Positions 13,982 to 40,714 of a stretch of 64,000 bases of DNA are shown here, one piece after another. The stretch's first letter is position 1, and every line of letters begins with the position of its first letter. The notes under the pieces were generated by a model. The model was given only the letters and a program-made list of their open reading frames with translations. It ran no database searches and had not been told where the DNA came from. Source of the stretch: Burkholderia pyrrocinia (GTDB lineage: Bacteria > Pseudomonadota > Gammaproteobacteria > Burkholderiales > Burkholderiaceae); the NCBI RefSeq assembly GCF_001028665.1, contig NZ_CP011504.1:1302001-1366000 (forward strand). The letters run 5' to 3'. The position numbers were made by a program, and so were the translations under genes.

Positions 13982-14509
13982 ATGAAGCGGATCGGCATCG
14001 CAGGATGCGTGACCATGTTGCTGGCGACCGCCGCGTTCGCGCAGTCCGGCGACGCGAACGTGCCCGAGGCGCGGCGCAACTGGTACAACGATCCGTTCAT
14101 TGCGCTGTCGCAGGACCTGGCCGAATGCCCGTTGCCGCTCGGCCCATGGATGACCCGCGCCGAGATGACGGACGACGCGCACTACCGCGCCGAACGCGGG
14201 ACGACCTGCTGGCTCGCCCACCGCTGCACGAAACCGAACTCGTATATGTATGACGCGGAGATCGGCGATGCCGCGAAGGCGCACTTCGCGGGCTCCGATC
14301 GCCTGCACGGTACGAGCCTGTGGATCACCGTGCAGCGGCGTTTTATCTATGTCGAAGGATGCGCGGATACGGCGTTCGATCGCCAGGCGTTGCAACGCGA
14401 ACTCGAGGCGCTTCCGGACGTCGAGCAGGTGTTCGTTCGCATCACCGACGATCCGCGCCGGAGCTTGCCGTACAAGGCGCGCGGGCAGCCTGGCCGCGCG
14501 CCGAACTGA
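13982..14509 (+). CDS. Secreted protein with BON-like domain
   Basis: A 175-residue exported protein with signal peptide ending AAFA, then a region with three cysteines (AECPLP, TTCWLAHRC). The C-terminal part, LWITVQRRFIYVEGCADT followed by helix and PDVEQVFVRI, resembles a BON domain, a fold linked to membrane or ligand binding in envelope proteins. AGGAG precedes the ATG. It may be co-transcribed with the small lipoprotein gene that starts 61 bases later. Function unknown. Confidence 0.65.
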   Translation: MKRIGIAGCVTMLLATAAFAQSGDANVPEARRNWYNDPFIALSQDLAECPLPLGPWMTRAEMTDDAHYRAERGTTCWLAHRCTKPNSYMYDAEIGDAAKAHFAGSDRLHGTSLWITVQRRFIYVEGCADTAFDRQALQRELEALPDVEQVFVRITDDPRRSLPYKARGQPGRAPN

Positions 14510-14570
14510 CGACGGAAGGGCCACGCATGGCATACTCGCGACATTCAAAAAATGGTTGACGGGAAGAACA

Positions 14571-14843
14571 ATGAAACACATGCTTGCGTCGGTCGGTCGG
14601 TGGCCTCGGGCGGCCGGATTGGTGGCTCTGGTTGCAGCGCTCGGCGGGTGCGGTGGCAGCGCGCCGCTGTTCACTTCGGACGGGCGTCCGACCACGCAAG
14701 TGCAATGCACCGGCAGCGGCTGGAGCAACTGCACGGACAATGCCCGGGCCATCTGCAACGGGGATTTCGAAGTGATCCAGCAATCGACTGATGACGCGTC
14801 GCGAAACCTTCTCTTCGCATGCAAGAAGAAAAGCGGTTATTGA
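14571..14843 (+). CDS. Small lipoprotein
   Basis: A 90-residue protein with a lipoprotein signal: basic start, hydrophobic LVALVAALGG and lipobox cysteine near residue 27. The mature part has four further cysteines (VQCTGSGWSNC, AICNGD, FACKKK) that could form two disulfides. GGGAAG lies before the ATG. No family is recognised. It probably sits on the periplasmic side of the outer membrane and may share a transcript with the preceding gene. Confidence 0.65.
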   Translation: MKHMLASVGRWPRAAGLVALVAALGGCGGSAPLFTSDGRPTTQVQCTGSGWSNCTDNARAICNGDFEVIQQSTDDASRNLLFACKKKSGY

Positions 14844-14946
14844 TCCCGACATGACCGGCTGAGGAGACCACGATCGGGCGAAGCGCTTTTCTGTTTGCTT
14901 AGAGTCACCTATTTTTCACGAATAACACTCACGGAGTCCCATCCAT

Positions 14947-15246
14947 ATGGCGACCTACAGGCAACTGACCGCGCAGCTCGAACGACTTCAGCAAAAGATC
15001 GACAAGGAACGCGAAAAGGCGATTGCCGACGCGATTGCCGATATCCGCGCGAAAATCGACGAATACGACATTACGCCGGAAGAGCTCGGTTTTCGTCCGG
15101 TGGGGTCCGCCGCCGCTACCGCGAAGCCGAAGCGTACGTTGCCGCCGAAATACCTGAACCCGAAGACGGGCGAAACCTGGAGTGGCCGCGGGCGGGCGCC
15201 GACGTGGCTCGGCAAGAACCGCGCACGTTTCCTGATCAAGGACTGA
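14947..15246 (+). CDS. H-NS-family nucleoid protein (short Bv3F type)
   Basis: A 99-residue H-NS-family protein. The N-terminal coiled coil (residues 1-45, rich in Q, K and E) would mediate oligomerisation. The DITPEELGF linker follows, and the C-terminal DNA-binding part has LPPKY-LNPKTGETWSGRGRAPTWL, the classic AT-minor-groove core around GRGR. Such proteins silence AT-rich DNA. CGGAG lies upstream of the ATG. A single copy of the GGTGAG-N6-CGGGAG repeat follows the stop codon directly, then a strong terminator. A divergent paralogue lies at 18832-19374 pointing toward it. Confidence 0.92.
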   Translation: MATYRQLTAQLERLQQKIDKEREKAIADAIADIRAKIDEYDITPEELGFRPVGSAAATAKPKRTLPPKYLNPKTGETWSGRGRAPTWLGKNRARFLIKD

Positions 15247-15264
15247 CTCCCGAAAAGCCTCACC
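15247..15264 (-). repeat. Single GGTGAG-N6-CGGGAG unit in hns 3' UTR
   Basis: On the plus strand CTCCCG-AAAAGC-CTCACC starts at the base after the hns stop codon. It is the same element, in the same orientation relative to its H-NS gene, as the 12-unit array beside the second H-NS gene. It lies before the terminator and is therefore transcribed with hns. Confidence 0.8.
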
Positions 15265-15280
15265 TTTCGTGCGTTGACTG

Positions 15281-15322
15281 ACGGTGCGAACGGCCATGCG
15301 GCCGTCGCACCGTTTTGTTTTT
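15281..15322 (+). terminator. Rho-independent terminator of hns
   Basis: Arms ACGGTGCG-ACGGCC and GGCCGT-CGCACCGT pair over 14 bp, with one bulged A and a 4-base loop. The run TTTGTTTTT follows. It stands 35 bases after the stop codon. Confidence 0.9.
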
Positions 15323-15547
15323 GTGCCGCTGCCGTGCAATTCCCGTTGACGAATGGAAGTGCAATGCCGCGCGATTAACGGATCCCGTTTTGCGAATTCG
15401 CCGCGATTAGGCTGCCTATCGCGGTCAATTGCGGTAAACAACCGTGCAATTGCGCAGTGCATGCGCATTGGCATTCGCGATTTCCGCGGTGCAGATGCAC
15501 CGCGGATTCCCATCACCTTTCGCGCGCTTGCGCGTTGTGCCGTGCAA

Positions 15548-15587
15548 TTCCCGAAGATACTCACCCTGGCTCCTGTAAATCCTCACC
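15548..15587 (-). repeat. Two tandem GGTGAG-N6-CGGGAG units
   Basis: On the plus strand TTCCCG-AAGATA-CTCACC (15548-15565) is followed after 4 bases by CTCCTG-TAAATC-CTCACC (15570-15587), a 22-bp period. Orientation is the same as the unit at 15247 and opposite to the array at 18468 on the map. Confidence 0.7.
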
Positions 15588-15821
15588 TTTGAGGAAGCGG
15601 CGGCAGCGTCGCGCCGCGTTGCTTGCGGCATGCTGCGATGTCGGGCCGCGCCTGTATTGCAGGTCCATGGTGCGAGCGTTGACGTTCGTCGGGTAGTCGG
15701 CCGTTCGGCATATAGGCAGCCGCATGCGCTTCGCCTATGCTTGGGGTTCGCGTCGAGCGGCGCACGGCCCGTCCGTGCCGTATGCCGCTCGGGTCGCCTT
15801 TCGTTACCGCAGGGAGCCGAT

Positions 15822-18179
15822 GTGACCGTTCGCCATCTCGATGCGTTGTTCCAGCCCAAGTCCGTTGCGGTCGTCGGCGCGTCGTCGCGCGCGGGCAGTA
15901 TCGGCGCGATGGTGTGGTCGCGTGTGCTCGACGGCGCGTTCGACGGACCCGTGTGGCCCGTCAATCCGAAATACCGGGAGCTGAACGGGCATACGGTCGT
16001 CTCCGACGTCGACCGGCTGCCCGCGCCGCCATCGGTAGCCGTGATCTGCACGCCGCCCGCGACCTGGGCCGGCATCGTGCGCAAGCTCGGCGAGCTCGGC
16101 ACGCGCGTCGCGGTGATCGTCGGTGAGGCGCGCACGGATGCCGATCTCACCGCGCTCGATCGCACGCTGAAGGCGGCAAAGCCATTCGTGCTCCGTATCG
16201 TCGGGCCCGGTAGCCTCGGTGTGCTGTCGCCCGCGCGGCATGCGCATTTCGGCGCACCGGCCTATACGGCGCGCTCGGGCGGCGTCGCATGGGTGTCGCA
16301 ATCGAACGCGTTGACGAACGCGGTGCTCGGCTGGGCCGATGCGCGGGGCCTCGGCTTTTCGCATGTCGTCGCGCTCGGCAGCGAGTCCGACGTCGATGCG
16401 GGCGACGTGCTCGATTATCTTGCGAGCGACCCCGGCACGCGTGCGATCCTGCTCGAACTCGATACCGTGCGCGCGGCACGCAAGTTCATGTCGGCCGCGC
16501 GCGCGGCCGCACGCAACAAGCCGGTGCTCGCGTTGCGCACCGGGCGTACCGATCCCGGCGACGCACTCTATACGGCGGCGTTTCAGCGCGCGGGGATGGT
16601 GCGCGTCGATGCGCTCGACGACCTGCTCGACGAGATCGAGACCCTCGGCGTCGGCCGTGTCTCAGCGCGCGGCGCGGCGACGCTCGTGACGAGCGACGCG
16701 GGCGTCGCGAAACTCGCGGTCGATGCGGTCGCGGAGGTGCGCGTCGCGCTCGCCGACTGGTCGCCGGCGGCAACGTCGGCCGTATCGGCCGCGCTGCCGC
16801 ACCTGACTGCGCCCGGCAATCCGCTGACGCTGGGCGACGATGCGCGCCCCGAGCACTTCGCCGCGGCGATCGAGGCGCTCGCGCCATTCCCGCAAACAGG
16901 CACGCTGTTCGTCGTCCATTCGACGTCCCATAGCGCGCCGGCCGATTCGGTCGCGCGCACGCTGATCGAATCGCGACAGCACGCGCATCGCGGCATCCTC
17001 GCGTGTTTCTTCGGTGCGGTCGACGCGGCGACGCGCGATGCGCTGCACGCGAACGGCATTCCCGTGCACACAACGCCGCAGCGGCTCGCGCGCGCGTATG
17101 CGCGTCTCGTCGACTACAGCCTCGGGCGGCAACTGCTGATGCAGACGCCCGAGGGCACGCCGCTGCAGCCGGCCGAGTGCGTCGCGTCCGCACAGGCCGA
17201 CGCGCGCCGGATGGTCGAAGCCGGCCAGCATGAACTGGCCGGCGACGCCGCGCTGCGCTGGCTGTCCCATTTCGGCCTGCAGGGCGAGCAGGCCGGCGAG
17301 CCGGCCGGCGCGAAAGTCGTCGATGTCACGGTCGACATGTACGACGATTCGAACTTCGGGCCGGTGTTTCGCTATGCCGTGCCGCCTGCGGACGGCGTGT
17401 CGGCGCCGTTCGTCGTCTACGGCCTGCCGCCGCTGAACACCGTGCTCGCCCGCGCGGTGATGGAACGCTCGCCGTATGCGCGCAGCACGCCCGTCGAGCC
17501 GACGCTCGACGCGTTGACGGCGCTGTCGCAGGTCGTCTGCGACGTTCGCGAAGTCGTCGCGATGTCCGTCACGCTGCGCGTGTTGTCCGACCGCGCGCAG
17601 GTGATCGCGCCGCGCATCACGCTGGCTACGGGGCGCAGCCGGCTTGCGATCATGCCGTATCCACGCCACCTCGAGCAGACGCTCGAGTGGCGCGGCGAGA
17701 CGGTAACGATTCGTCCGATCCGTCCGGAAGACGAGGCCGCGCATAACGAACTGCTCGGCGCGATGACGCCGGACGATCTGCGAATGCGTTTCTTCGGCGC
17801 GGTGCGCAGCTTCGATCATTCGCAGGTGGCCCGCATGACGCAGATCGACTACGACCGTGAGATGGCCTTCATCGTGTCGTTCACCGATATGTCGGGGCGT
17901 GACCATACGCTCGCGGTCGCACGCGCGGTCGCCGATCCCGACAACGAGACGGCGGAGTTCGCGATCGCGGTGAGGCCCGATCAGAAGGGCAAGGGGCTCG
18001 GCCGGCTGATGATGACCCGCATCATCGACTACGCACGCTCGCGCGGAACCGCATGGATGATCGGCGAGGCGCTGCGCGAGAACTCGGCGATGATCTCGCT
18101 CGCGAAGTCGTGCGGTTTTGCGGTGTCGACGACGGAGGAGCCCGGCGTAGTGGGCTTCAGGATGAAGTTGCAGCAGTAG
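15822..18179 (+). CDS. Pat-type protein acyltransferase: NDP-forming acyl-CoA synthetase-like domains fused to GNAT
   Basis: A 785-residue fusion. Residues 1-130 form a CoA-binding Rossmann fold (SVAVVGASSRAGSIGAMVW). Residues 140-450 are succinyl-CoA-ligase-like domains (WVSQSNALTNAV, ALGSESDVDAGDVLDYL). A shortened ATP-grasp-like part follows, and from about 625 a GNAT domain opens VTIRPIRPEDE and carries GKGLGRLMM. This is the architecture of Pat/YfiQ, which acetylates lysines on enzymes such as acetyl-CoA synthetase. YfiQ is about 886 residues, so about 100 are missing, chiefly from the ATP-grasp region. Start GTG at 15822 follows AGGGAG. It lies between two convergent H-NS-family genes. 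Confidence 0.83.
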   Translation: MTVRHLDALFQPKSVAVVGASSRAGSIGAMVWSRVLDGAFDGPVWPVNPKYRELNGHTVVSDVDRLPAPPSVAVICTPPATWAGIVRKLGELGTRVAVIVGEARTDADLTALDRTLKAAKPFVLRIVGPGSLGVLSPARHAHFGAPAYTARSGGVAWVSQSNALTNAVLGWADARGLGFSHVVALGSESDVDAGDVLDYLASDPGTRAILLELDTVRAARKFMSAARAAARNKPVLALRTGRTDPGDALYTAAFQRAGMVRVDALDDLLDEIETLGVGRVSARGAATLVTSDAGVAKLAVDAVAEVRVALADWSPAATSAVSAALPHLTAPGNPLTLGDDARPEHFAAAIEALAPFPQTGTLFVVHSTSHSAPADSVARTLIESRQHAHRGILACFFGAVDAATRDALHANGIPVHTTPQRLARAYARLVDYSLGRQLLMQTPEGTPLQPAECVASAQADARRMVEAGQHELAGDAALRWLSHFGLQGEQAGEPAGAKVVDVTVDMYDDSNFGPVFRYAVPPADGVSAPFVVYGLPPLNTVLARAVMERSPYARSTPVEPTLDALTALSQVVCDVREVVAMSVTLRVLSDRAQVIAPRITLATGRSRLAIMPYPRHLEQTLEWRGETVTIRPIRPEDEAAHNELLGAMTPDDLRMRFFGAVRSFDHSQVARMTQIDYDREMAFIVSFTDMSGRDHTLAVARAVADPDNETAEFAIAVRPDQKGKGLGRLMMTRIIDYARSRGTAWMIGEALRENSAMISLAKSCGFAVSTTEEPGVVGFRMKLQQ

Positions 18180-18467
18180 CGTCTGCCTGCCGCGTGAAGC
18201 GCGGCGTCATCGTATGCGGTCGATGGCGCCAGTCCTTCATCGCAGTACGCATCCGTTCATTCAGGGATGCAAAGCATTTAAGCCGGTCTCTTGTACGAAA
18301 CGCCCAGACGTATCGGGGCCGTTCGCATTGGCGATATCGATGGCCGCATAGCTTCAGGAGGCGCTTGCTGTGTGCCGCGCTATCCGCTCCGCACGGCCGT
18401 TTCACGCGATGTGTTCACGTGCATTCGCAACTGCATTCCGGCCTCGCCAATTCGGCATCACCGCAAA

Positions 18468-18743
18468 GGTGAGACTTTTCGGGAGCTGCGAGTGAGCTTT
18501 TCCGGGGATGCGTGGTGAGCCGATACGGGAGCGTTCGGTGAGCCTTCCCGGGAGCGGCTGGTGAGCACCTGCGGGAGGCGCTGGTGAGCCTTTCCGGGAC
18601 GTGTTGGTGAGGGTCTGCGGGAGGGTTCGGTGAGGACATTCGGGAGACTTTGGTGAGGGTCTCCAGGAGCCTTGGGTGAGCTTTTTCGGGAAGTGTTGGT
18701 GAGTGCTTGCGGGACACCAAGGTGAGACTTTTCGGGAGCATGC
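18468..18743 (+). repeat. Twelve-unit 23-bp phased array, GGTGAG-N6-CGGGAG-N5
   Basis: Units start at 18468, 18491, 18514, 18537, 18560, 18583, 18606, 18629, 18652, 18675, 18698 and 18721, with no insertion or deletion in the 23-bp period. GGTGAG is perfect in 11 of 12 units. The second block is exactly CGGGAG in 7 units and begins CGGGA in 10. The N6 and N5 spacers vary freely, except that the first and last units share ACTTTT. The conserved blocks start 12 then 11 bases apart. The array lies 88 bases beyond the stop of the minus-strand H-NS-family gene, after two hairpins. The same motif follows the other H-NS gene. Selection on motif and phase is implied; the binding partner is unknown. 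Confidence 0.92.
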
Positions 18744-18768
18744 GGACGCACCGCTCCCGCGAGTGCGG

Positions 18769-18823
18769 CGCCGGCCAATGCCGGCGTCACACGCGGGTGC
18801 GGGCACGCATGAACCGTGCCCGC
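18769..18823 (-). terminator. Two perfect hairpins between hns2 stop and the array
   Basis: Just after the stop, GCGGGCACG/CGTGCCCGC (18799-18823) pairs over 9 bp with a 7-base loop. Then CGCCGGC/GCCGGCG (18769-18786) pairs over 7 bp with loop CAAT. Neither has a T-run, so intrinsic termination is doubtful; transcription may run into the array. Confidence 0.55.
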
Positions 18824-18831
18824 GCTCAGAT

Positions 18832-19374
18832 TCAGGCAGCGAGTTTCGATGCCGCGTCGTTCACCTGGTCGCGCGAAATCGCGAGTTCCTCGAGGTGCGG
18901 ATCGGCATAGACTGCGCCGGTTTCGCGCTCGAGGCGGGCGATCGTCAGCGCGCAACGCGCGGTGTCCTTCGGCATTGCGATGAAACGCTTGACCGACTCG
19001 CCGGACGTGAATGCTTCGAACAGCGCGCCGCGCACGTCGTCCGGAAGCGTCTTGGTCCACTGGTACGGCTTGCCGTTGAACGTGATCGACGGCGGCAGCG
19101 TGCGTTCCTTCTTGGTCGCGGTGATGAGCCCGTAGGTGCGGGCCGCATCGCCGATCTGCTCGGGCGAGAAGAGTTCGTCGGGCGTGATGTCGAACTGCTC
19201 GATGTAGTTCTCGATCGCCTGCATCGCGGCGGTACGATCGTCGCGCTTCTTCTGCGCGCGCGCGACGATATCGCGCAGCTCGTCCGCCTCTTCGGGCGTG
19301 ATCGTGAAGCTTGCCTGCTTCTGCTGAAGTTCGGAGAAACGCTGGAATTCTTGATCGTTCAGAAGTTTGGCCAT
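18832..19374 (-). CDS. Divergent H-NS-family protein without the GRGR DNA-binding core
   Basis: A 180-residue protein. Helical N-terminus, then YIEQFDITPDELF, matching YDITPEEL of the H-NS protein at 14947. KKERTLPPSITFNGKPYQW matches the KPKRTLPPKY...GETW block of that protein. The following GRGRAPxW core is replaced by TKTLPDDVRG, and about 65 extra residues follow (FIAMPKDTARCALTIARLERETG). This suggests an H-NS-like oligomerisation partner, an adaptor, or a protein with a different DNA preference. I start at the ATG at 19374; ten extra upstream residues are possible. Two hairpins and the 23-bp array lie downstream. Homology is inferred from these blocks only. Confidence 0.68.
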   Translation of the reverse strand: MAKLLNDQEFQRFSELQQKQASFTITPEEADELRDIVARAQKKRDDRTAAMQAIENYIEQFDITPDELFSPEQIGDAARTYGLITATKKERTLPPSITFNGKPYQWTKTLPDDVRGALFEAFTSGESVKRFIAMPKDTARCALTIARLERETGAVYADPHLEELAISRDQVNDAASKLAA

Positions 19375-19555
19375 GACATCCATCGGACACGACAACCGTG
19401 ACAACCGGCCGCCGTAGTTTTTGAGAGGGCCGCTATTCTAGCGTAGCGCCGTGTGCGCACGATATGGCACCGCGCATCGCGCACTGCACAGGTGTCGCGC
19501 GCGACCGGGCCGGCGCAACTGCGCCGTACCCGGTCCGCTTCGTCGAACCCGCGCG

Positions 19556-20377
19556 TCAGCAGGTCTCGGTGCGGCCCATCGACAGATGGGCGGCCGTGTC
19601 GCGCAGCCCTGCTGCGACGACATCGACGGACGGCGCCGCGTGCGCGTCGATCCGGCGCATGTACGGGCAGGTCAGCACCGCGATCGCCTGGCCGGCCGGC
19701 CCGAGGATCGGCGCGGTCAGGTCGGTCACGCCGTACGCCTGGCGGCTGTCCTGACGCAGGTAGCCATCCTGCCGGATGGACTGGCACGCATACGCGAGCT
19801 CCTGCTCGTTCAGCGCCGCTTCACCCTTGACCTTGCGATGCTCGGCCAGCATGTGCGTGCGCTGTTCGGGGCCCTGGAACGACAGCATCACGCGCCCCGA
19901 CGCCGTATCGGCCAGCCCGACGCGCGAGCCGAGCCGGACCGACACGCCCCATGGGCCGGGCCCGTCGACCTGCGCAATCACGAGCAGGTTGCCGCGATCG
20001 TAGACGGACAGGTGGCACGACTGTTCGGCGGCATCGGCGAAGCGCTGCATCGGCGGCAATGCCTCGGCAATCAGCCGGCTCATCGGCGGATGCCGGTGCG
20101 CAAGCGCGAACAGCTTGAGGCTGAGCGTGTAGCGGTCGCCGCCGGTCGAGCGCATCACATAGCGACGCGCGACGAGGCGTTCGAGCATCCGGTAGATTTC
20201 GCTCGCGTTGCGGCCGAGTTCCTTCGTGATTTCGGTGCGGGTGAGTCCTTCTTTCTGCTCGGACAGGAGTTCGAGAATGTCGAGGCCCTTGTCGAGCGCG
20301 GGTGCGCGATAGCGGTCGATGGCGGCCATCGATTCCCGTGCGTCGCTGCCGGGAAGCGGGTCGTTGGTTGTCTGCAT
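19556..20377 (-). CDS. IclR-family transcriptional regulator
   Basis: A 273-residue regulator. The N-terminal winged helix (ALDKGLDILELLSEQKEGLTRTEITKELGRNASEIYRMLERL) and the C-terminal effector domain (GPGPWGVSVRLGSRVGLADTASGRVML, AYGVTDLTAPI) are typical of IclR. The start is uncertain: ATGs at 20446, 20377 and 20329 are all in frame and none has a strong ribosome site; I chose the middle one. IclR proteins usually control a neighbouring catabolic gene, here probably the divergent FAH-family hydrolase at 21041. Confidence 0.88.
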   Translation of the reverse strand: MQTTNDPLPGSDARESMAAIDRYRAPALDKGLDILELLSEQKEGLTRTEITKELGRNASEIYRMLERLVARRYVMRSTGGDRYTLSLKLFALAHRHPPMSRLIAEALPPMQRFADAAEQSCHLSVYDRGNLLVIAQVDGPGPWGVSVRLGSRVGLADTASGRVMLSFQGPEQRTHMLAEHRKVKGEAALNEQELAYACQSIRQDGYLRQDSRQAYGVTDLTAPILGPAGQAIAVLTCPYMRRIDAHAAPSVDVVAAGLRDTAAHLSMGRTETC

Positions 20378-21040
20378 TTTGGGTGTGGGGTTGGGGATTA
20401 CCGTCGATCGGTTGGCGACGCACGCTGGCCGGTTCTGCACGCGCATAAGTAGGGCCCGCGTATGGCGATGAAAGCCATTCGTACGAGCTTAGCAATAAAC
20501 AAACAGTGTGCAATGCAGCGTCTTTTTACCGATCATTACCGGATAAGAACGGATTGGCAAACGTTTCCGATGACAGGGGCACCCCGAATAGCCAGTATTC
20601 ATGCCCAGATGGCAGGCGATGCCGGCCTGCGCGGCGGATCGCGCTGCGCGGGTGCGTCCGATGTTGCGCCGCAGCGTCTGCAGGTGCACCAATAGTCGGT
20701 ATCCGTCGCGCGTCATTTCACGGCGCGCGGCCGATGGTACAAAGGCTTGCGGGCCAGCGACGGTGCGGCCGCGCGTGAAGTCGGCCGGCATCGGCCGGCA
20801 CGCGTCGCGGGTGCCGGGCCGTCGTCGCCGATGCGCAGACCGGCGGCCGCCCGTTCGATGCGCGCCGTGCTTTTCGTGCGGCGCCGCGATCGCTGCGCCC
20901 GCGCGACCCTCGCGCGTCGACGGCAGGCCGGATGCGGCGCCGACGCGCGCAATCGACGATCGACAATCAGTCCGGCGTGCGGCCGCGAATGGCCGCGTCG
21001 GCCGGTATCCTGTCCCATTCGACAACAGAGGTTGACCACG
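20378..21040. other. Non-coding region between IclR and FAH genes
   Basis: About 660 bases without a supported gene. The left third is AT-rich (around 20485-20560) and is the likely regulator promoter. It contains a direct TTACCG repeat 10 bp apart. An in-frame extension of the FAH gene back to 20747 is open only because of GC bias. Confidence 0.55.
20526..20541. promoter_or_regulatory. TTACCG direct repeat, possible IclR operator
   Basis: TTACCG-atca-TTACCG lies in the AT-rich stretch upstream of the IclR gene. Ten-base spacing places both halves on one DNA face. Assignment to IclR is a guess from position. Confidence 0.25.
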
Positions 21041-21889
21041 ATGAAACTGCTTCGCTATGGCCCGTCCGGCCAGGAAAAGCCCGGTATGCTCGACGCGGAC
21101 GGCCGGATTCGCGACCTGTCCGCGCACGTGCCGGATCTTGCCGGCGATGTGCTGTCCGACGCGGGTCTCGCGCGGTTGCGCGCGATCGATCCGGCGACGC
21201 TGCCGCTCGTGTCCGGCGAGCCGCGCATCGGCGCGTGTGTCGGGCACGTCGGCAAGTTCATCGGCATCGGCCTGAACTATGCCGATCACGCGGCCGAAGC
21301 CGGCATGCCGGTGCCGAAGGAACCGGTCGTGTTCGGCAAGTGGACGAGTTCCATCTGCGGCCCGAACGACGGCATCGACATCCCGAAGGGTTCGGTCAAG
21401 ACCGACTGGGAAGTCGAGTTGGGCGTCGTGATCGGTGCGCGGTGCAAGGACGTCGACGAAGCGAGTGCGCTCGATTACGTCGCGGGCTATTGCGTCGTCA
21501 ACGACGTGTCCGAGCGCGAGTGGCAGATCGAGCGCGGCGGCCAGTGGGACAAGGGCAAGGGTTTCGACACGTTCGGCCCGATCGGCCCGTGGCTCGTCAC
21601 GCGCGACGAAGTGCCCGATCCGCAGCGTCTCGACCTGTGGCTCGAAGTCGACGGCCATCGTTATCAGAACGGCAACACGCGCACGATGGTGTTCACCGTC
21701 GCGCAGTTGATTGCCTATCTGTCGACCTGCATGACGCTGCAGCCGGGCGACGTGATCACGACCGGCACGCCGCCGGGCGTCGGCATGGGCATCAAGCCGT
21801 CGCCGATTTTCCTGAAGGCCGGCCAGATGGTGCGCCTGGGGATCGACGGGCTCGGCGAGCAGTTGCAGCACACGCGCGGCGCACAGTAA
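21041..21889 (+). CDS. Fumarylacetoacetate hydrolase-family protein
   Basis: A 282-residue FAH-fold enzyme. The metal-binding acid residues appear in DWEVELGVVIG and in VNDVSEREWQ, and the substrate loop is ITTGTPPGVGMGIKP. The sequence GKWTSSICGPND and the closing VRLGIDGLGEQLQHT resemble the ureidoglycolate lyase-like/2,4-diketo-3-deoxy-L-fuconate hydrolase branch more than true FAH. It would cleave a C-C bond of a 2,4-diketo acid in sugar-acid or aromatic breakdown. AGAGG precedes the ATG. The divergent IclR regulator probably controls it. The exact substrate is not determined. Confidence 0.85.
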   Translation: MKLLRYGPSGQEKPGMLDADGRIRDLSAHVPDLAGDVLSDAGLARLRAIDPATLPLVSGEPRIGACVGHVGKFIGIGLNYADHAAEAGMPVPKEPVVFGKWTSSICGPNDGIDIPKGSVKTDWEVELGVVIGARCKDVDEASALDYVAGYCVVNDVSEREWQIERGGQWDKGKGFDTFGPIGPWLVTRDEVPDPQRLDLWLEVDGHRYQNGNTRTMVFTVAQLIAYLSTCMTLQPGDVITTGTPPGVGMGIKPSPIFLKAGQMVRLGIDGLGEQLQHTRGAQ

Positions 21890-21971
21890 CCGCGCGAGCG
21901 TCGATCCCGTCGAGCGACCGCTGCAGGCGGTCGCCGGAAACAGGACGCTGAAACTAACGTATCAAAACCAG

Positions 21972-22004
21972 GGGCCCGATTCCGCGCAACGCGGAATCGG
22001 GCCC
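21972..22004. terminator. Bidirectional terminator between FAH and VOC genes
   Basis: A perfect 14-bp stem, GGGCCCGATTCCGC with its complement, and a 5-base loop. On the minus strand it is followed after 4 bases by TTTTGAT; on the plus strand by TTGCCGTTTG. It separates two convergent genes and can serve both. Confidence 0.8.
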
Positions 22005-22036
22005 TTGCCGTTTGTACGCGGTGTACGCGGGCTCGA

Positions 22037-22420
22037 TCACACGACGTTGTCGAGTTCGCAATGCGCTTCCAGCCGATACCCGTCGGGATCGACGACGAAC
22101 GCCGCGTAGTAGCCGGGGCCGTAGTGCTCGCGCTTGCCGGGCCCGCCGTTGTCCTGGCCGCCGTGCTCGAGCGCGGCGCGGTAGAACGCGTCGACCTCGA
22201 CGGGCGAAGCGGCCTTGAACGACAGGTGCAGCCCCGATTCGGGATCGGCGGCGACCGGGCGGGCAGCGTGCTGCAACCACAGCTGCGGTTCGGTCGTGCC
22301 GTACCCGATGGATCCGTCGTCGCCATACAGCCGCTTGTAGCCGAGCGCGCCGAGCGTGCTGTCGTAGAACGCGCGGCTGCGGCCGATGTGGGCGACGCCG
22401 AAGGAAAGGTGATCGATCAT
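22037..22420 (-). CDS. VOC (glyoxalase/bleomycin-resistance) family protein
   Basis: A 127-residue single-module VOC protein. It begins MIDHLSFGVAHIGRSRAFYDSTLGALGYK and ends with FVVDPDGYRLEAHC, where the histidine and glutamate of the metal site fall in the usual places. These proteins bind metal and act on small electrophiles or antibiotics; this branch is uncharacterised. AAGGAG lies 8 bases before the ATG at 22420. A truncated copy of its 5' end and leader lies immediately upstream. Confidence 0.85.
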   Translation of the reverse strand: MIDHLSFGVAHIGRSRAFYDSTLGALGYKRLYGDDGSIGYGTTEPQLWLQHAARPVAADPESGLHLSFKAASPVEVDAFYRAALEHGGQDNGGPGKREHYGPGYYAAFVVDPDGYRLEAHCELDNVV

Positions 22421-22482
22421 CTGTTGGCTCCTTGAATTGAAGGGGGACCTCTGTGCAGCAAACCCGCTTATAAGCACCATGC

Positions 22483-22618
22483 CAGCCGCTTGTAGCGGAA
22501 CGCGCCAAGCGTGCTGTCGTAGAACGCGCGGTTGCGGTCGTTGTGGATAACTCCGCAGGAAAGACGATCGATCATCTGTGGCTCCTTGAACTGAAAGGGG
22601 ACGTCAGTGCAGCAGACC
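22483..22618 (-). pseudogene. Duplicated 5' fragment of the VOC gene
   Basis: This segment repeats 22328-22464, covering the leader, ribosome site and first 30 or so codons of the VOC gene, with scattered differences. On the minus strand an ATG at 22575 after AAGGAGCC gives MIDRLSCGVIHNDRNRAFYDST, then runs out of homology and stops after 34 residues. It is a tandem partial duplication that has decayed. It places a second translatable leader in front of the intact gene, so it may still be transcribed. Confidence 0.8.
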
Positions 22619-22624
22619 TTTTTT

Positions 22625-22683
22625 AACCAGCATGCTGGTTATGTTAGAAAGCGTCCGGACGCTTGTCAACCAGCATGGTGGTT
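22625..22683. promoter_or_regulatory. Twin AACCAGCATGCTGGTT operators around a 12-bp palindrome
   Basis: AACCAGCATGCTGGTT (22625-22640) is a perfect 16-bp palindrome. AACCAGCATGGTGGTT (22668-22683) is a near copy 43 bp further. Between them GCGTCCGGACGC (22651-22662) is a perfect 12-bp palindrome. The second copy ends 16 bases before the CGNR gene. The arrangement looks like a paired operator controlling the divergent VOC and CGNR genes. Confidence 0.7.
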
Positions 22684-22698
22684 AGATACGATGGTGTC

Positions 22699-23319
22699 AT
22701 GAGCGATACGCAACCTTCCGTCACGATGGACTGCCTGATTCCGGCGCCGCCCGAAACCCTGAGCATCGATTTCGCGAACACGCTGTACTGGCGTGGCAGC
22801 GACCTGCCGACGGAAACCTTCGGAACGATGGACGACCTGCTGGTGTGGTGCCGCGAGCAGGCCGGCGTGCCGGCCGGCCTGGCCGACCGGTGCCGCGTGC
22901 GCGGCGTGGAGGAAGGCGAGCCGGCGATGCTGGCGCGTGCGCTCGCGTTGCGCGAGGCGCTGTATCGGCTCTTTCATGCGCAGGCCGAGCGGCGCGAGCC
23001 GCAGGCCGACGATCTCGCGCTGCTCGGCGGCTTCCTGGCTGAAGCGTCGCCGCGCGTCGCGCTGGCGCGCGTCGACGGCGGTTATGCGTGGCGGATCGGG
23101 GATGCGGGCGCAACGCTCGCGGCGCTGCTGAGCCCGGTGCTGTGGTCGGCGATCGACCTGCTCGGCGGCGCGCGGCTCGCGAAGGTCAAGCGGTGCGCGA
23201 ACGACGCATGCCAGTGGCTGTTCATCGACGACAGCAAGAACGGCAGTCGCCGCTGGTGCTCGATGTCGTCGTGCGGCAATCGCGCGAAGGCGTACCGCCA
23301 CTATCACAAGGCCGACTGA
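22699..23319 (+). CDS. ABATE/CGNR zinc-finger regulator
   Basis: A 206-residue protein with an N-terminal ABATE domain (LSIDFANTLYWRG; helical middle) and a C-terminal CGNR zinc finger, RCANDACQWLFIDDSKNGSRRWCSMSSCGNRAK, with all four cysteines. CGNR proteins are stress-linked transcription regulators common in actinobacteria and proteobacteria. I start at the ATG of MSDTQPS; an ATG 36 bases upstream falls inside the operator. The twin palindromes upstream suggest autoregulation or control by another factor. Confidence 0.85.
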   Translation: MSDTQPSVTMDCLIPAPPETLSIDFANTLYWRGSDLPTETFGTMDDLLVWCREQAGVPAGLADRCRVRGVEEGEPAMLARALALREALYRLFHAQAERREPQADDLALLGGFLAEASPRVALARVDGGYAWRIGDAGATLAALLSPVLWSAIDLLGGARLAKVKRCANDACQWLFIDDSKNGSRRWCSMSSCGNRAKAYRHYHKAD

Positions 23320-23367
23320 CGGGACCGTTCAGGCACGCACATACCGGCGCGTCGAACCCGAACCTGC

Positions 23368-25350
23368 CTACTTCGCCGACAACTTCCGCCACAGCGTGGT
23401 CTTGCTGATGCCGAGCATCGCGCATGCGCGGTCGCGGTCGCCGCCGCACGCGTCGAGCACCGCGCGGATCTCGTCGGCTTCCGCGCGGCGGCGGCGCGCG
23501 TGCAGCGTCTGCGTATCGTCGGTATCGGCCGCGTCGGGCGGCGCCGCGAACAGCTCGGGCGCGATCGCCTGCAACGCGTCGGGATCGAGCGCGGCGCACG
23601 CGGCGGCGGGATCGTTTTCATCGACTTCCTCGGCGAGTTCCACTGCGATCCGCTCGATCACGTTCTGCAGTTCCCGCACGTTGCCGGGCCACCGGTAGCG
23701 CGCAAGCGTGGCCTGCGTCGCGCCGAGCACGCGCGCGGCATCGCCGGCATCGCGCAGGCGTTCGGCGAGGCGCGGCTCGCGCCGCGCGGCCTGCACGAGC
23801 AGCGTCGCCGCGAGCGCGGGGATGTCGGCCGCGCGCTCGCGCAGCGGCGGCAGGCCGACGTTCAGGATGTTGAGCCGGTAATAGAGATCCGCGCGGAACG
23901 TGCCGGCCTCGACGGCCGCGAGCAGCGGGCGGTGCGTCGCGGCGATCACGCGTACGTCGATGCGGATCGGCTCGGTCGAGCCGAGGCGGATCACCTCGCG
24001 CTCCTGCAGCACGCGCAGCAGCCGGCTCTGCAGCGACGGCGGCATCTCGCCGATCTCGTCGAGAAACAGCGTGCCGCGGTGCGCGGCCTCGAACAGGCCG
24101 GTCTTGCCGCCGCGCCGCGCGCCGGTGAACGCGCCTTCCTCATAGCCGAACAACTCGCTCTCGAGCAGCGCTTCCGGAAACGCGCCGCAATTGACCGCGA
24201 CGAACGGGTAGCTGCGCCGCGCGGACAGCGCGTGCAGGCTTTGCGCGATCATTTCCTTGCCGGTGCCGCTTTCGCCGAGCACGAGCACGGTCGCGTCGGA
24301 TTTCGCGTAGCGGCGCACGAGGTCGCGCACGCGCGCCATCGGCGTCGATGCGCCGATCACGTCGTCGAGCGCATAGCGCGCCGCGAACTGCTGCGTGGTC
24401 GGCTGCGAACGCAATGCGCGGTCGAGCCGTTCGACCGCGCGCGATTCCTGGAACGTCAGCACGCTGCCCGACGTCACGCCGCGATCGACGAGCGGCCCGC
24501 GATGCACGACGTAGCGCACGCCGCGCACGGTCGCGAGCGCGTCGCCGTCCTCGCCGCGTAGCGTGCGCAGCTCGGGCCGCAGGTCGACGAGCGCGCGGCC
24601 GACGGCCGCCGCGGGTTCGACCCCGAGCGCCGACGCGAGCCGCTCGTTGATCGCCTCGACGCGGCCGCGCGCATCGAGCGCGACGACGCCGTCGCGCAGG
24701 TGCTGCAGCAGGTTGTCGAGCCGCTGGCGGCGGAACGCCTCGGCGTGCGTCGCATACGCGACTTCGAGGGCGGTATCGACGGCCTTGCGCACCGACGCAT
24801 GCGAATACAGGAACACCGCGCCCATGCCGGCGCTGGCCGCGAGGTCGGTGACGAGGCCGGGGCCGACGATCGTCTCGATGCCGCGGTCGCGCAGGTCGTG
24901 CACGCAGGCTTCCGCTTCCTGCGCGGACTGATATGACGCAAACTGCACGTCGAGGCCGTACGCGGCGACGAAGCGGCGCACTTCGGGCGGCGTTTCTCCG
25001 GCGCTGACGAGCGCGATCCGCGCCGCGTCGCGCCGGGCGCGCGCGAGCGCCTGCATCACGTCGAAGCCGGTCGGCGACACGACCACGACCGGCACCTGTG
25101 CACGCGTCTTCAGGAAGGCGCCGTTCGAGCCGGCCGCGACGATCACGTCGGGCCGCGCGGCGCCGGCCTCGGCGATCGCGGTGAGCGCATCCTCATACGC
25201 GCGCGTCACGATGCGCACGTCGGCACGTTCGTCGAATTCGCCGGCGATCTCGCGAAAGAGTTCGCGCAGGCGGCTGATGCCCATCGCCCAGATGCGCGGG
25301 CGCGCCGCGCGATCGGCCGGGCCGACAGGCTTGGTCGAGGAGAGGTCCAT
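23368..25350 (-). CDS. prpR: Propionate catabolism sigma-54 activator PrpR
   Basis: A 660-residue enhancer-binding protein. Residues about 20-200 form the PrpR_N sensor (which in Salmonella responds to 2-methylcitrate) and about 205-310 a PAS-like linker. The AAA+ domain has Walker A GESGTGKE at 359-366, GAFTGA at 406-411 and Walker [10 protein letters not shown] at 426-434. A Fis-type helix, [18 protein letters not shown], ends it. It diverges from prpB, where a sigma-54 promoter and an inverted repeat are visible. This is the standard prpR-prpBC layout of Burkholderia. Confidence 0.95.
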
Positions 25351-31619: not shown

Positions 31620-31717
31620 CGTTTGACGCGCGCATGACGGACGCGATCCGGTGCGCCACGCACGGGACCGGAATCCGTACCGGAGCGCGGACACCGGTCG
31701 ACTGCAAAGCATGAGGC

Positions 31718-31889
31718 CAGCGTAAGCGCTAAAGCGCTAACGCTGATCGACCGCAAAGCATGGGACCCGCGTAAGCGCTAAAGCGCCAACGCGGGTCGAC
31801 CGCCGTGGGGATGGAGTAAGCGCTGAAGCGCTAACTCCATCCAGCCACGCCATGGGATCAGCGTAACCGCTAAAGCGGTAACGCTGATC
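31718..31889 (+). repeat. Four tandem hairpins with a common core and covarying stems
   Basis: Hairpins lie at 31718-31745, 31764-31797, 31809-31842 and 31856-31889. Each has an outer stem ending GT...AC and an inner stem AGCGCT/AGCGCT around a 2-base AA or GA loop, separated by single unpaired A residues. Outer stems differ yet pair: CAGCGT/ACGCTG, GACCCGCGT/ACGCGGGTC, GGATGGAGT/ACTCCATCC and GATCAGCGT/ACGCTGATC. The fourth inner stem is ACCGCT/AGCGGT, changed on both sides. Linkers share CGCAAAGCATGGGA-like sequence. The last hairpin ends 3 bases before the AGGAG of the CoA-transferase gene, so it forms that gene's leader. Confidence 0.9.
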
Positions 31890-31903
31890 GACAGGAGAAT
31901 CGC

Positions 31904-38006: not shown

Positions 38007-39521
38007 ATGACCGAATCCGTTTCCACGCCTCGCTCCCGTTCCCGTTCCAATCGTTCATCGGCCCGTTCCCGCCAGCGCTCGGCGGCTGCCGCGGGCAGCA
38101 CGTCCGCGAGGGCAACGTCGCGGCACGGCAGCGCGCCGGCCGGCGATGCGCAGCGGGATGAACTGACGCTCGACCTGTTCGGCGATCCGGTGCTCGAGCC
38201 GGGCGAGCGGGTGCTGGTTACGGCGGAAGCCGAAGCGGCGATCGGTGCCGCGGACGATGCGGCTGCCGGGCGGCAGGCCTCGCTGGACGGGTTCAGTGCG
38301 CCGGAGGGCACGAGTGCGGTGGGGCATGCGGAAGCTGACGGTGCGGTGAAGCCGGAAGTCGCGGCGGCGAGTGGTGATGTTTCGGCGCCTGAAGGTGGCG
38401 ATGCTGCGAACGCGCGCGGTGTGTCCGCGGCTGATGGCGTTGCAATAAAGGTCATCGATGTGCCTGCGGCCGATGGCGTTGCAGCGAAGGTAGCCTATGT
38501 GCCTGCGGCCGATGGCGTTGCAGTGAAGGCGGCCGATGTGCCTGCGGCCGTTGGCGTTGCAACGAAAGCAGCCGATGTGCCTGCGGCCGATGGCGTCGCA
38601 GCGAAGGCGGCCGATGTGTCTGCGGCCGATGGCGTCGCAGCGAAGGCGGCCGACGTGTCTGCGGCCGATGGCGCTACCGCGACGGCAACCGGGCCGCAAG
38701 CGGCAGATGGCGCCGTGGCGAAGACGGCCGATCGGCACGCGACTGATGGCGAAATCACGAAAGCTGCTGTCGAAGCGGCGGCCGTCAAATCTCGCGAAGG
38801 ACGATCTTCCGGCGACGCAGTGAAGGAGCGCCGTTCCTCGTCGGCCGGCAAACGCCGGGCGGCTGCCGGCGCAAGCGACGCGACGTCGGTGCAATCCGCG
38901 CCGGTTGCGACGAGCGTCGACAAGGCGCCTGACGCGACCGGATCGAATCCGGTGCCGGACGTTGCTTCGACGGTTGAGTCGCAGACGCCGGCACAACCGG
39001 CCGATCCGGCGATCGTCGCGAACCCCGCGCCCCCCCGTGACGCTGCCCCGACCAACGCCTCGTCGTCGCCGGTCATGCAGCCCGTGGCTTCCGCCGCGTC
39101 CTTCGTGACGAAGCCGTCGTCGGAACGTGCGCAACCGGCTGCGCCGGCCTTCGATCCGGATACGCACCTGCGCCCGCTGACGGATCGGCTCGCCGCGCTG
39201 CAGGCCGACGTGGACGGTTTGACGCGCACGGCCGATCGCGAGATGCGCCGCGTCAACCGCCTGCTGCTGGCGCTGGCCGTCGTCGTGCTGGCGGGGCTCG
39301 TCGCGCTGATGCTGCAAACGCGGCAGATTGCACACCTGAAGCAGGACGCGGCCACCAAGCAGCAGCGGATCGATCGCCTGGCGGCCGATCTGTCGACGCA
39401 GCAGGCGACGCTGATGACGCTCGAAGAGCACCACGAAGCGCTCCTGTCGCAAGTCGACCGGCTTCAGCGCAATGCGAACCGCGAGGCGGCCGTCGCGAAG
39501 CGTGCCCGCCGCACGCGCTGA
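38007..39521 (+). CDS. Repeat-rich membrane-anchored hypothetical protein
   Basis: A 504-residue protein of low complexity. The first 50 residues are very rich in serine and arginine. A motif DELTLDLFGDPVLEPGERV follows (residues 51-69) and may be the conserved part of the family. Residues 139-255 hold nine 13-residue repeats based on VPAADGVAAKAAD. After an alanine/proline-rich stretch, a membrane helix (LLLALAVVVLAGLVALML, about 418-435) leads to a C-terminal coiled coil (about 440-500). I recognise no named family. The layout suggests a bitopic envelope protein with a coiled-coil tip. The start is the ATG after an acceptable context at 38007. Confidence 0.65.
   Translation: MTESVSTPRSRSRSNRSSARSRQRSAAAAGSTSARATSRHGSAPAGDAQRDELTLDLFGDPVLEPGERVLVTAEAEAAIGAADDAAAGRQASLDGFSAPEGTSAVGHAEADGAVKPEVAAASGDVSAPEGGDAANARGVSAADGVAIKVIDVPAADGVAAKVAYVPAADGVAVKAADVPAAVGVATKAADVPAADGVAAKAADVSAADGVAAKAADVSAADGATATATGPQAADGAVAKTADRHATDGEITKAAVEAAAVKSREGRSSGDAVKERRSSSAGKRRAAAGASDATSVQSAPVATSVDKAPDATGSNPVPDVASTVESQTPAQPADPAIVANPAPPRDAAPTNASSSPVMQPVASAASFVTKPSSERAQPAAPAFDPDTHLRPLTDRLAALQADVDGLTRTADREMRRVNRLLLALAVVVLAGLVALMLQTRQIAHLKQDAATKQQRIDRLAADLSTQQATLMTLEEHHEALLSQVDRLQRNANREAAVAKRARRTR
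38421..38771 (+). repeat. 39-bp in-frame tandem repeat (nine units)
   Basis: Nine units encode 13-residue variants of VPAADGVAAKAAD. Units five and six are nearly identical while the outer ones are diverged, so the array probably expands and contracts from the centre. The unit is a multiple of three, so copy changes keep the frame. Confidence 0.88.
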
Positions 39522-39696: not shown

Positions 39697-39852
39697 ATGA
39701 GCTTCATCCTTGCCCTGCTGCAAAAGATCGACGACCTGTTCGTGTCGCCGCACCTGCCGCTCGACGCCGATTACTCGTACGCTGCACGTCGTGCCGAAGT
39801 CGAGCGCGTGCGCCGTGCGCATCTCGTGCCGATCGTCCTGTATCGTCGCTGA
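39697..39852 (+). CDS. Small DUF3563-like protein
   Basis: A 51-residue protein beginning MSFILALLQKIDDLFVSPHLPLD and ending in RRAEVERVRRAHLVPIVLYRR: an amphipathic start, then a charged helix. It resembles the short DUF3563 proteins of Burkholderiales, though I cannot be certain. CAGGAG precedes the ATG at ideal spacing, and twin AGGGAAAACCCT motifs lie upstream. Its stop codon is the first TGA of an 8-bp tandem repeat. Confidence 0.7.
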   Translation: MSFILALLQKIDDLFVSPHLPLDADYSYAARRAEVERVRRAHLVPIVLYRR

Positions 39853-39896
39853 TTCGCTGATTCGCTGATTCGCTGATTCGCTGATTCGCTGATTCG
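39849..39896 (+). repeat. Six copies of CTGATTCG
   Basis: Six perfect head-to-tail 8-bp units run from the stop codon of the small gene. Copy-number change here would alter the 3' UTR, not the protein, because the first unit already holds the stop. Confidence 0.95.
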
Positions 39897-40572: not shown

Positions 40573-40684
40573 CGCCAAGCGCCAAGCGCCAAGCGCCAAA
40601 CGCCAAACGCCAAACGCCAAACGCCAAACGCCAAACGCCAAACGCCAAACGCCAAACGCCAAACGCCAAACGCCGAACGCCAAA
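40573..40684. repeat. Sixteen-copy 7-bp microsatellite, CGCCAAA
   Basis: Three CGCCAAG units, eleven perfect CGCCAAA units, one CGCCGAA and one CGCCAAA follow one another without gap. The array is intergenic between the convergent GNAT and copA stops. A 7-bp unit would shift frame if it were coding, but no supported gene crosses it. It is a likely variable-number locus. Confidence 0.95.
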
Positions 40685-40714
40685 CGGCTGTCCGGCTAGC
40701 GTCACCGGCACGCG

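Follow-up and report, generated by a model that had tools for sequence, protein, structure and literature searches.

Chromosome 2 iterons arrayed far from the replication origin in Burkholderia: a candidate locus for restraining initiation

What could twelve evenly spaced copies of a short motif be doing between two convergent genes on chromosome 2 (c2) of Burkholderia pyrrocinia? The copies form an array in a stretch of 64,000 nucleotides (the window; assembly GCF_001028665.1, contig NZ_CP011504.1, C2:1302001-1366000) belonging to a 7.96 Mb genome in four contigs. A first-pass annotation of the window had taken the array for a product of selection on repeated contact with a protein or RNA, had proposed H-NS-family proteins as ligands and knew of no named element with this consensus. 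Our analysis identifies the units, almost certainly, as c2 iterons, i.e. sites of the c2 replication initiator (Rep) of the kind found at the chromosome 2 origin (ori2), and makes the array a candidate for negative control of c2 initiation.

18468..18743, plus strand: putative array of c2 iterons far from ori2, 12 units of GGTGAG-N6-CGGGA(G)-N5 with a 23-bp period, found by repeat scan and at the same place across the genus
18468..18484, plus strand: array unit 1, canonical iteron match, 35.7 bits under a matrix of ori2 sites
18721..18737, plus strand: array unit 12 (the last), canonical iteron match, 31.5 bits under the same matrix

The units start at 18468 + 23n without a single indel, and ten of the twelve match GGTGAG-N6-CGGGA in full. 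The GGTGAG block is constant except for a single A at its position 1; in CGGGAG, bases 1-5 are invariant or missed once each, and base 6 is G in 8/12 units. When units of at least 9/11 bases were chained at spacings of 22-24 bp, the longest plus-strand chain in the window was 12. Of 60 windows simulated under a first-order Markov model, 58 had a longest chain of 1 and two a longest chain of 2. The twelve units, their period and the absence of indels are as the annotation had claimed. It was also right about the constancy of the blocks; the spacers, said to vary freely, do vary but are T-rich at positions 9 (8/12 units), 10 (7/12) and 11 (11/12). Adjacent units share a mean of 3.5 of 11 spacer bases, and a tandem repeat grown by slippage was rejected on this ground, in agreement with the annotation; that the array is neither coding nor a clustered regularly interspaced short palindromic repeat locus we accept as well.

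Exact copies of GGTGAG-N6-CGGGA number 38 genome-wide (33 on C2, four on C3, one on C1). With 32 of them inside C2:1127074-1320737, a 194-kb segment that spans the c2 origin and the array and leaves out just one C2 copy, the motif does not show the random genome-wide scatter that had been named as a possible argument against selection. The largest cluster, C2:1142534-1143841, has 18 sites of at least 10/11 bases, 11 of them exact, and lies immediately upstream of rep (C2:1143961-1145328). The 455-amino-acid product of rep carries Rep3_N and Rep3_C domains; by sequence, the closest solved structure is the pi protein (2nra), a weak match (E 0.0073). Adjoining rep are the gene of a ParB-domain protein and a ParA-like open reading frame, the latter named from its sequence as judged by eye. 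This cluster together with rep and parAB is ori2; the array belongs to the same replicon, at a distance of 177 kb. The c2 iteron consensus of B. cenocepacia J2315, as given by Du et al. 2016 (PMC4948915), is the same sequence, with ctCCCGAAAAacCTCACCTtt as its reverse complement. Because the array shares its motif with the ori2 iterons, its replicon with ori2 and its consensus with the published one, its assignment to the c2 iterons is very nearly secure; the consensus has thus had a name since 2016.

Further iterons flank ori2 on both sides within about 20 kb (C2:1127074-1140931 and 1157183). In the present genome (G000) and in G009, the array and the listed C2 sites in the vicinity of ori2 have their GGTGAG-to-CGGGA direction leading away from the origin, three sites beside hns (see below) being the exception; this outward direction could reflect merely G-rich leading strands.

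Tandem iterons are typical of Rep-type origins, and the array could on this account be a second or former origin. This appears very improbable, as neither rep nor par genes accompany the array, and as positions 17900-19400 contain neither a DnaA box (at most one mismatch; one occurs in 2 kb of ori2) nor any published 7-mer. GC content is 54-71% around the array versus 44-62% across most of ori2. The lack of rep, of DnaA boxes and of AT-rich DNA led us to reject a replication origin at the array.

Does the iteron follow the initiator beyond the genus? Among 23 genomes of seven other genera, at least 15 of them picked for an earlier match to a two-unit pattern, 22 encode a Rep relative (E < 1e-40), 21 at 88-92% identity and one at 39%. 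Scanning 1.5 kb upstream of all 22 rep loci in rep orientation revealed 11-19 sites of at least 10/11 bases, 5-13 of them exact, in 21/21 genomes with the 88-92% Rep, and four sites at 10/11 with none exact for the 39% Rep. Exact copies exceeded those of a reversed-pattern control in 14/14 genomes (26-41 vs 1-4). By these sequence comparisons the exact iteron goes with the Rep across genera. In three other-genera genomes assembled in few contigs, iterons are dispersed over tens of kb around ori2. The rep matches of G198 (L185) and G192 (L186) have one internal TGA each. In a named collection, the two-unit pattern retrieved 42 stretches, i.e. 34 from Burkholderia, three from Caballeronia and five from actinobacteria. 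The actinobacterial matches (Nocardia, Streptomyces, Actinomadura and a Propionibacteriaceae metagenome-assembled genome) were set aside, as they resemble short tandem repeats or, for Actinomadura, a chance match; four of the five have near-identical spacers.

Within the genus, the locus was read past the 3′ end of a neighbouring gene that served as marker.

18832..19404, minus strand: conserved gene, locus marker, convergent with the gene at 15630..18179; start codon provisional

The marker was found in 65/65 same-genus genomes, and iterons are present at the locus in every one. Phased chains of 8 units or more occur in 53/65, with exactly 12 units in 27 of these, under a rule that takes weak units (6/11 bases), by which a chain may gain one or two units terminally or run across a gap; the exact two-unit pattern is likewise found in 53/65 genomes, B. 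pyrrocinia included. The other twelve have few (11) or decayed (one) units. In the few-unit genomes, whose Rep is 91-92% identical, the 1.3 kb scanned hold 2-4 sites of at least 9/11 bases, generally one pair beside the marker gene at a distance of 22-24 or 33-34 bp; in G015 the second unit of the pair is degenerate. In the decayed array of G013 (L120), intact units alternate with units stripped of their blocks. The arrays of G040 (L134) and G047 (L137) reach ~22 and ~19 units, respectively, and near-identity of some adjacent unit pairs in G040 suggests recent duplication two units at a time. Across the genus, unit number varies between 2 and over 20, and spacings in the 53 longer arrays are mostly 23 bp (550), with 24 (49), 22 (21) and 25 (8) also occurring; the net offset over the whole array is zero in 24/53. 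The survey of related Burkholderia genomes that the annotation had advised hence finds the motif kept at the locus throughout, but unit number variable and the phase, exact in B. pyrrocinia, looser elsewhere.

Unit-by-unit comparison of 34 arrays of 12 units gave identities of 0.954 for the blocks, 0.776 for N6 and 0.549 for the linkers, while units of different rank in these arrays agreed at 0.431 (N6) and 0.310 (linker). An alignment of 11 arrays returned similar values (blocks 0.977 and 0.945, N6 0.773, linker 0.556). Each unit has thus retained its identity between species, with the blocks far more constrained than the linkers, and the postulated selection on the blocks gains support. Conservation of whole spacers between species had been named as evidence to the contrary. 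What we see is partial conservation of N6, attributable to common descent of stable units, and linkers at 0.549; selection on the blocks is not removed by this. The same numbers bear on the idea that Rep binds the array without consequence and that the array is a tolerated relic of iteron spread. Dispersed iterons around ori2 in other genera, the wide range of unit numbers and the decay in G013 would fit a relic, yet the contrast between blocks and linkers within the same arrays and the occupation of the locus in 65/65 genomes argue against one, leaving it quite improbable.

The compact, genus-wide array and the identity of its units between species are new here. For B. cenocepacia, Du et al. 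2016 (PMC4948915) note in a legend of their supplement that c2 iterons form a second cluster at 140 kb from the origin of c2, which we infer to be the same locus; unlike the array described here, that cluster is named in the legend without sequence, phase, conservation or function. Our literature search, thin on subscription papers, returned nothing further on it.

How strongly might the units be bound? Under a matrix of 279 ori2 sites from 16 other genomes of the genus, the ori2 sites of B. pyrrocinia score 13.8-33.6 bits, and the top score among 36,000 positions of background is 5.0 bits. The two array ends attain 35.7 and 31.5 bits and the ten inner units 7.8-27.2 bits, which predicts an affinity order of strong ends and weaker inner sites.

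Repeated contact by a protein, as first suspected, is the best reading of the array, and the predicted ligand is the c2 Rep. Taken as a whole, it is likely, judging from the motif and its setting, that the array binds this initiator and restrains c2 re-initiation via titration or handcuffing; negative control of c2 initiation as its function we put forward as moderately probable. Rep would bind the units side by side. Passage of the c2 fork through the array, 177 kb from ori2, would double the number of sites early in the round; the doubled array would lower free Rep (titration) and/or pair via Rep with the ori2 iterons (handcuffing), and a second firing of ori2 would be hindered such that c2 is copied once per cell cycle. 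Given two canonical end units and ten weaker-scoring inner ones, we propose that Rep occupies the end units first and, with rising concentration, progressively the inner ones, in which case the array would exert its effect chiefly when Rep is abundant.

Such an arrangement has relatives. Plasmids such as P1 (incA) and F (incC) carry additional tandem iterons beyond the core origin, which limit copy number through titration and handcuffing. These iterons adjoin the rep gene, whereas the array is 177 kb from rep. Origin-type sites outside the origin, at a position that would be duplicated early in the round, are what is looked for in a remote titration locus of the Vibrio cholerae chrII type, and the array has them. 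In V. cholerae, according to Baek and Chattoraj 2014 (PMC3937223) and PMC6090056, remote RctB sites cut the copy number of a mini-chrII and were likened to datA. Like the array, the chrII sites are origin-type initiator sites outside the origin of the same secondary chromosome, and titration and inhibition were shown for them; the array differs in being compact and phased, in its Rep_3 initiator and in holding no GATC (compared with PMC3937223). The datA locus of Escherichia coli, as described in PMC3937223 and PMC6090056, is likewise a compact initiator-binding cluster off the origin that restrains initiation, but consists of DnaA sites that promote DnaA-ATP hydrolysis; as the c2 initiator belongs to the Rep_3 family, this mechanism is not expected for the array.

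Off-origin initiator sites can also activate, and a V. cholerae chrI site enhances chrII replication (PMC3937223). The array might thus bind Rep but remodel or deliver it and promote ori2 firing, in the manner of DARS (DnaA-reactivating sequence) or crtS. In the same study (PMC3937223), sites on the same chromosome that resemble the origin iterons inhibit, whereas the activating site differs in sequence and sits on the other chromosome, and we regard positive action as unlikely.

Several observations weigh against negative control by the array. Deletion of the chrII-10 site in V. cholerae gave no growth phenotype (PMC3937223). With 7.8-27.2 bits as compared to 13.8-33.6 bits at ori2, the inner units may be poor Rep binders. 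No iteron cluster was found at the marker locus in any of 21 other-genera genomes (~3.5 kb read in each; no site of at least 10/11 bases in 16, one in five), so that the array is dispensable for a nearly identical initiator as such. Finally, the distance to ori2 reflects gene order and lends no independent support to a function. A single contig carries both rep and the locus in 49/65 genomes (the remaining 16 being split assemblies with the two on different contigs); in these 49, the locus lies on rep's downstream side at 98-272 kb in 45 (median 151 kb; 157 kb in G007) and on its other side at 102-265 kb in four. The marker gene, without iterons, keeps a similar distance of 127-209 kb in two other genera (six genomes), and conservation of the distance was dropped as functional evidence on this account; in a third genus (nine genomes) the marker is only ~5-18 kb from rep, the other-genera distances being computed by hand.

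Most in-depth work on once-per-cycle, ordered origin firing in bacteria with several chromosomes concerns V. cholerae. For Burkholderia chromosome 2, the array offers a compact, conserved and removable candidate control locus.

Iterons recur, inverted, on the side of the array where hns is found, 3.2 kb off; these were absent from the annotation.

14947..15246, plus strand: hns gene, 99-amino-acid product, Histone_HNS (Pfam) E 1.2e-11
15248..15264, minus strand: inverted iteron, 1-2 bp past the hns stop codon
15549..15565, minus strand: inverted iteron, member of a pair 22 bp apart
15571..15587, minus strand: inverted iteron, 10/11 bases, pair partner of 15549..15565
15630..18179, plus strand: acyl-CoA synthetase-like / GNAT gene between this trio and the array, ending 288 bp before the array; start codon provisional

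The trio scores 35.1, 20.0 and 30.9 bits under the ori2 matrix. In 39/39 genomes whose fetched stretch includes hns (the 91-92% Rep clade among them; the other 26 stretches end short of it), at least three inverted iterons of at least 9/11 bases lie within 520 bp after hns, the first 1-2 bp beyond its stop codon. This constancy, along with the iterons on both sides of ori2, would suit a structural anchor, with Rep bridging array and ori2 to organise or segregate the ori2 domain adjacent to hns. As the sequence offers nothing to tell anchoring from handcuffing, an anchor remains a rather improbable alternative.

H-NS-family proteins as ligands, which the nearby hns would favour, are not sustained by our analysis: only the 99-amino-acid protein is a Pfam H-NS match, whereas the marker product has no Pfam match and only sub-cut-off NCBIfam matches (best E 0.021). 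The H-NS connection to the array is one of neighbourhood only. Together with an RNA element from either strand, H-NS binding is highly improbable, as the motif is that of the ori2 iterons and G+C-rich. The plus strand does fold better than shuffled sequences (z -2.69; 1/200 shuffles equal), but the minus strand does not (z -0.57), and 11 aligned arrays gave a covariation term of -0.35 kcal/mol with two-sided changes in 4/71 predicted pairs; a structured RNA was rejected on covariation. Positions 18100-18900 contain no promoter-like site and one terminator-like site vs 1.1 expected. The array's exclusion as an intrinsic terminator by the annotation is accepted too. Rfam returned nothing above threshold for 14000-24000 and one sub-threshold antisense match at 14556-14710.

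c2-type iterons also occur on chromosome 3 (c3), a replicon with its own Rep_3 gene. Fifteen genomes were searched; four lack such a rep, and in 9/11 c3-bearing genomes, the c3 rep is preceded at 1.54-1.70 kb by sites of at least 10/11 bases in the same orientation. Eight of these nine genomes have paired sites at a distance of 33 or 34 bp (partner 9/11 in G008), and G010 has a single site. In G030 the pair is located 3.0 kb upstream, and G063 lacks such sites.

G000:C3:1003867-1003916: c2-type iterons upstream of the c3 rep in the present genome (L219)

These sites may reflect c2-to-c3 coupling or merely shared ancestry of origin DNA. A possible, if doubtful, extension is that the c2 initiator acts as a cross-replicon timer, with the array gating free c2 Rep and the iterons by the c3 origin letting Rep license or delay c3; if so, the array would help set the order of chromosome handling. 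Du et al. (PMC4948915) depict sequential partition c1-c2-c3-p1, and c2-initiator sites at the c3 origin make a c2-to-c3 link directly testable.

Elsewhere in the window, 49- and 92-bp repeats surround GTAAGCGCTAAAGCGC at 31694-31892, outside the array. The 39-bp tandem repeats at 38396-38732 perhaps encode a protein repeat, 39 being a multiple of three. A perfect 8-bp tandem repeat of 6.4 copies (39846-39896) and a near-perfect 7-bp one of 16.3 copies (40573-40686) are of the slippage-prone kind.
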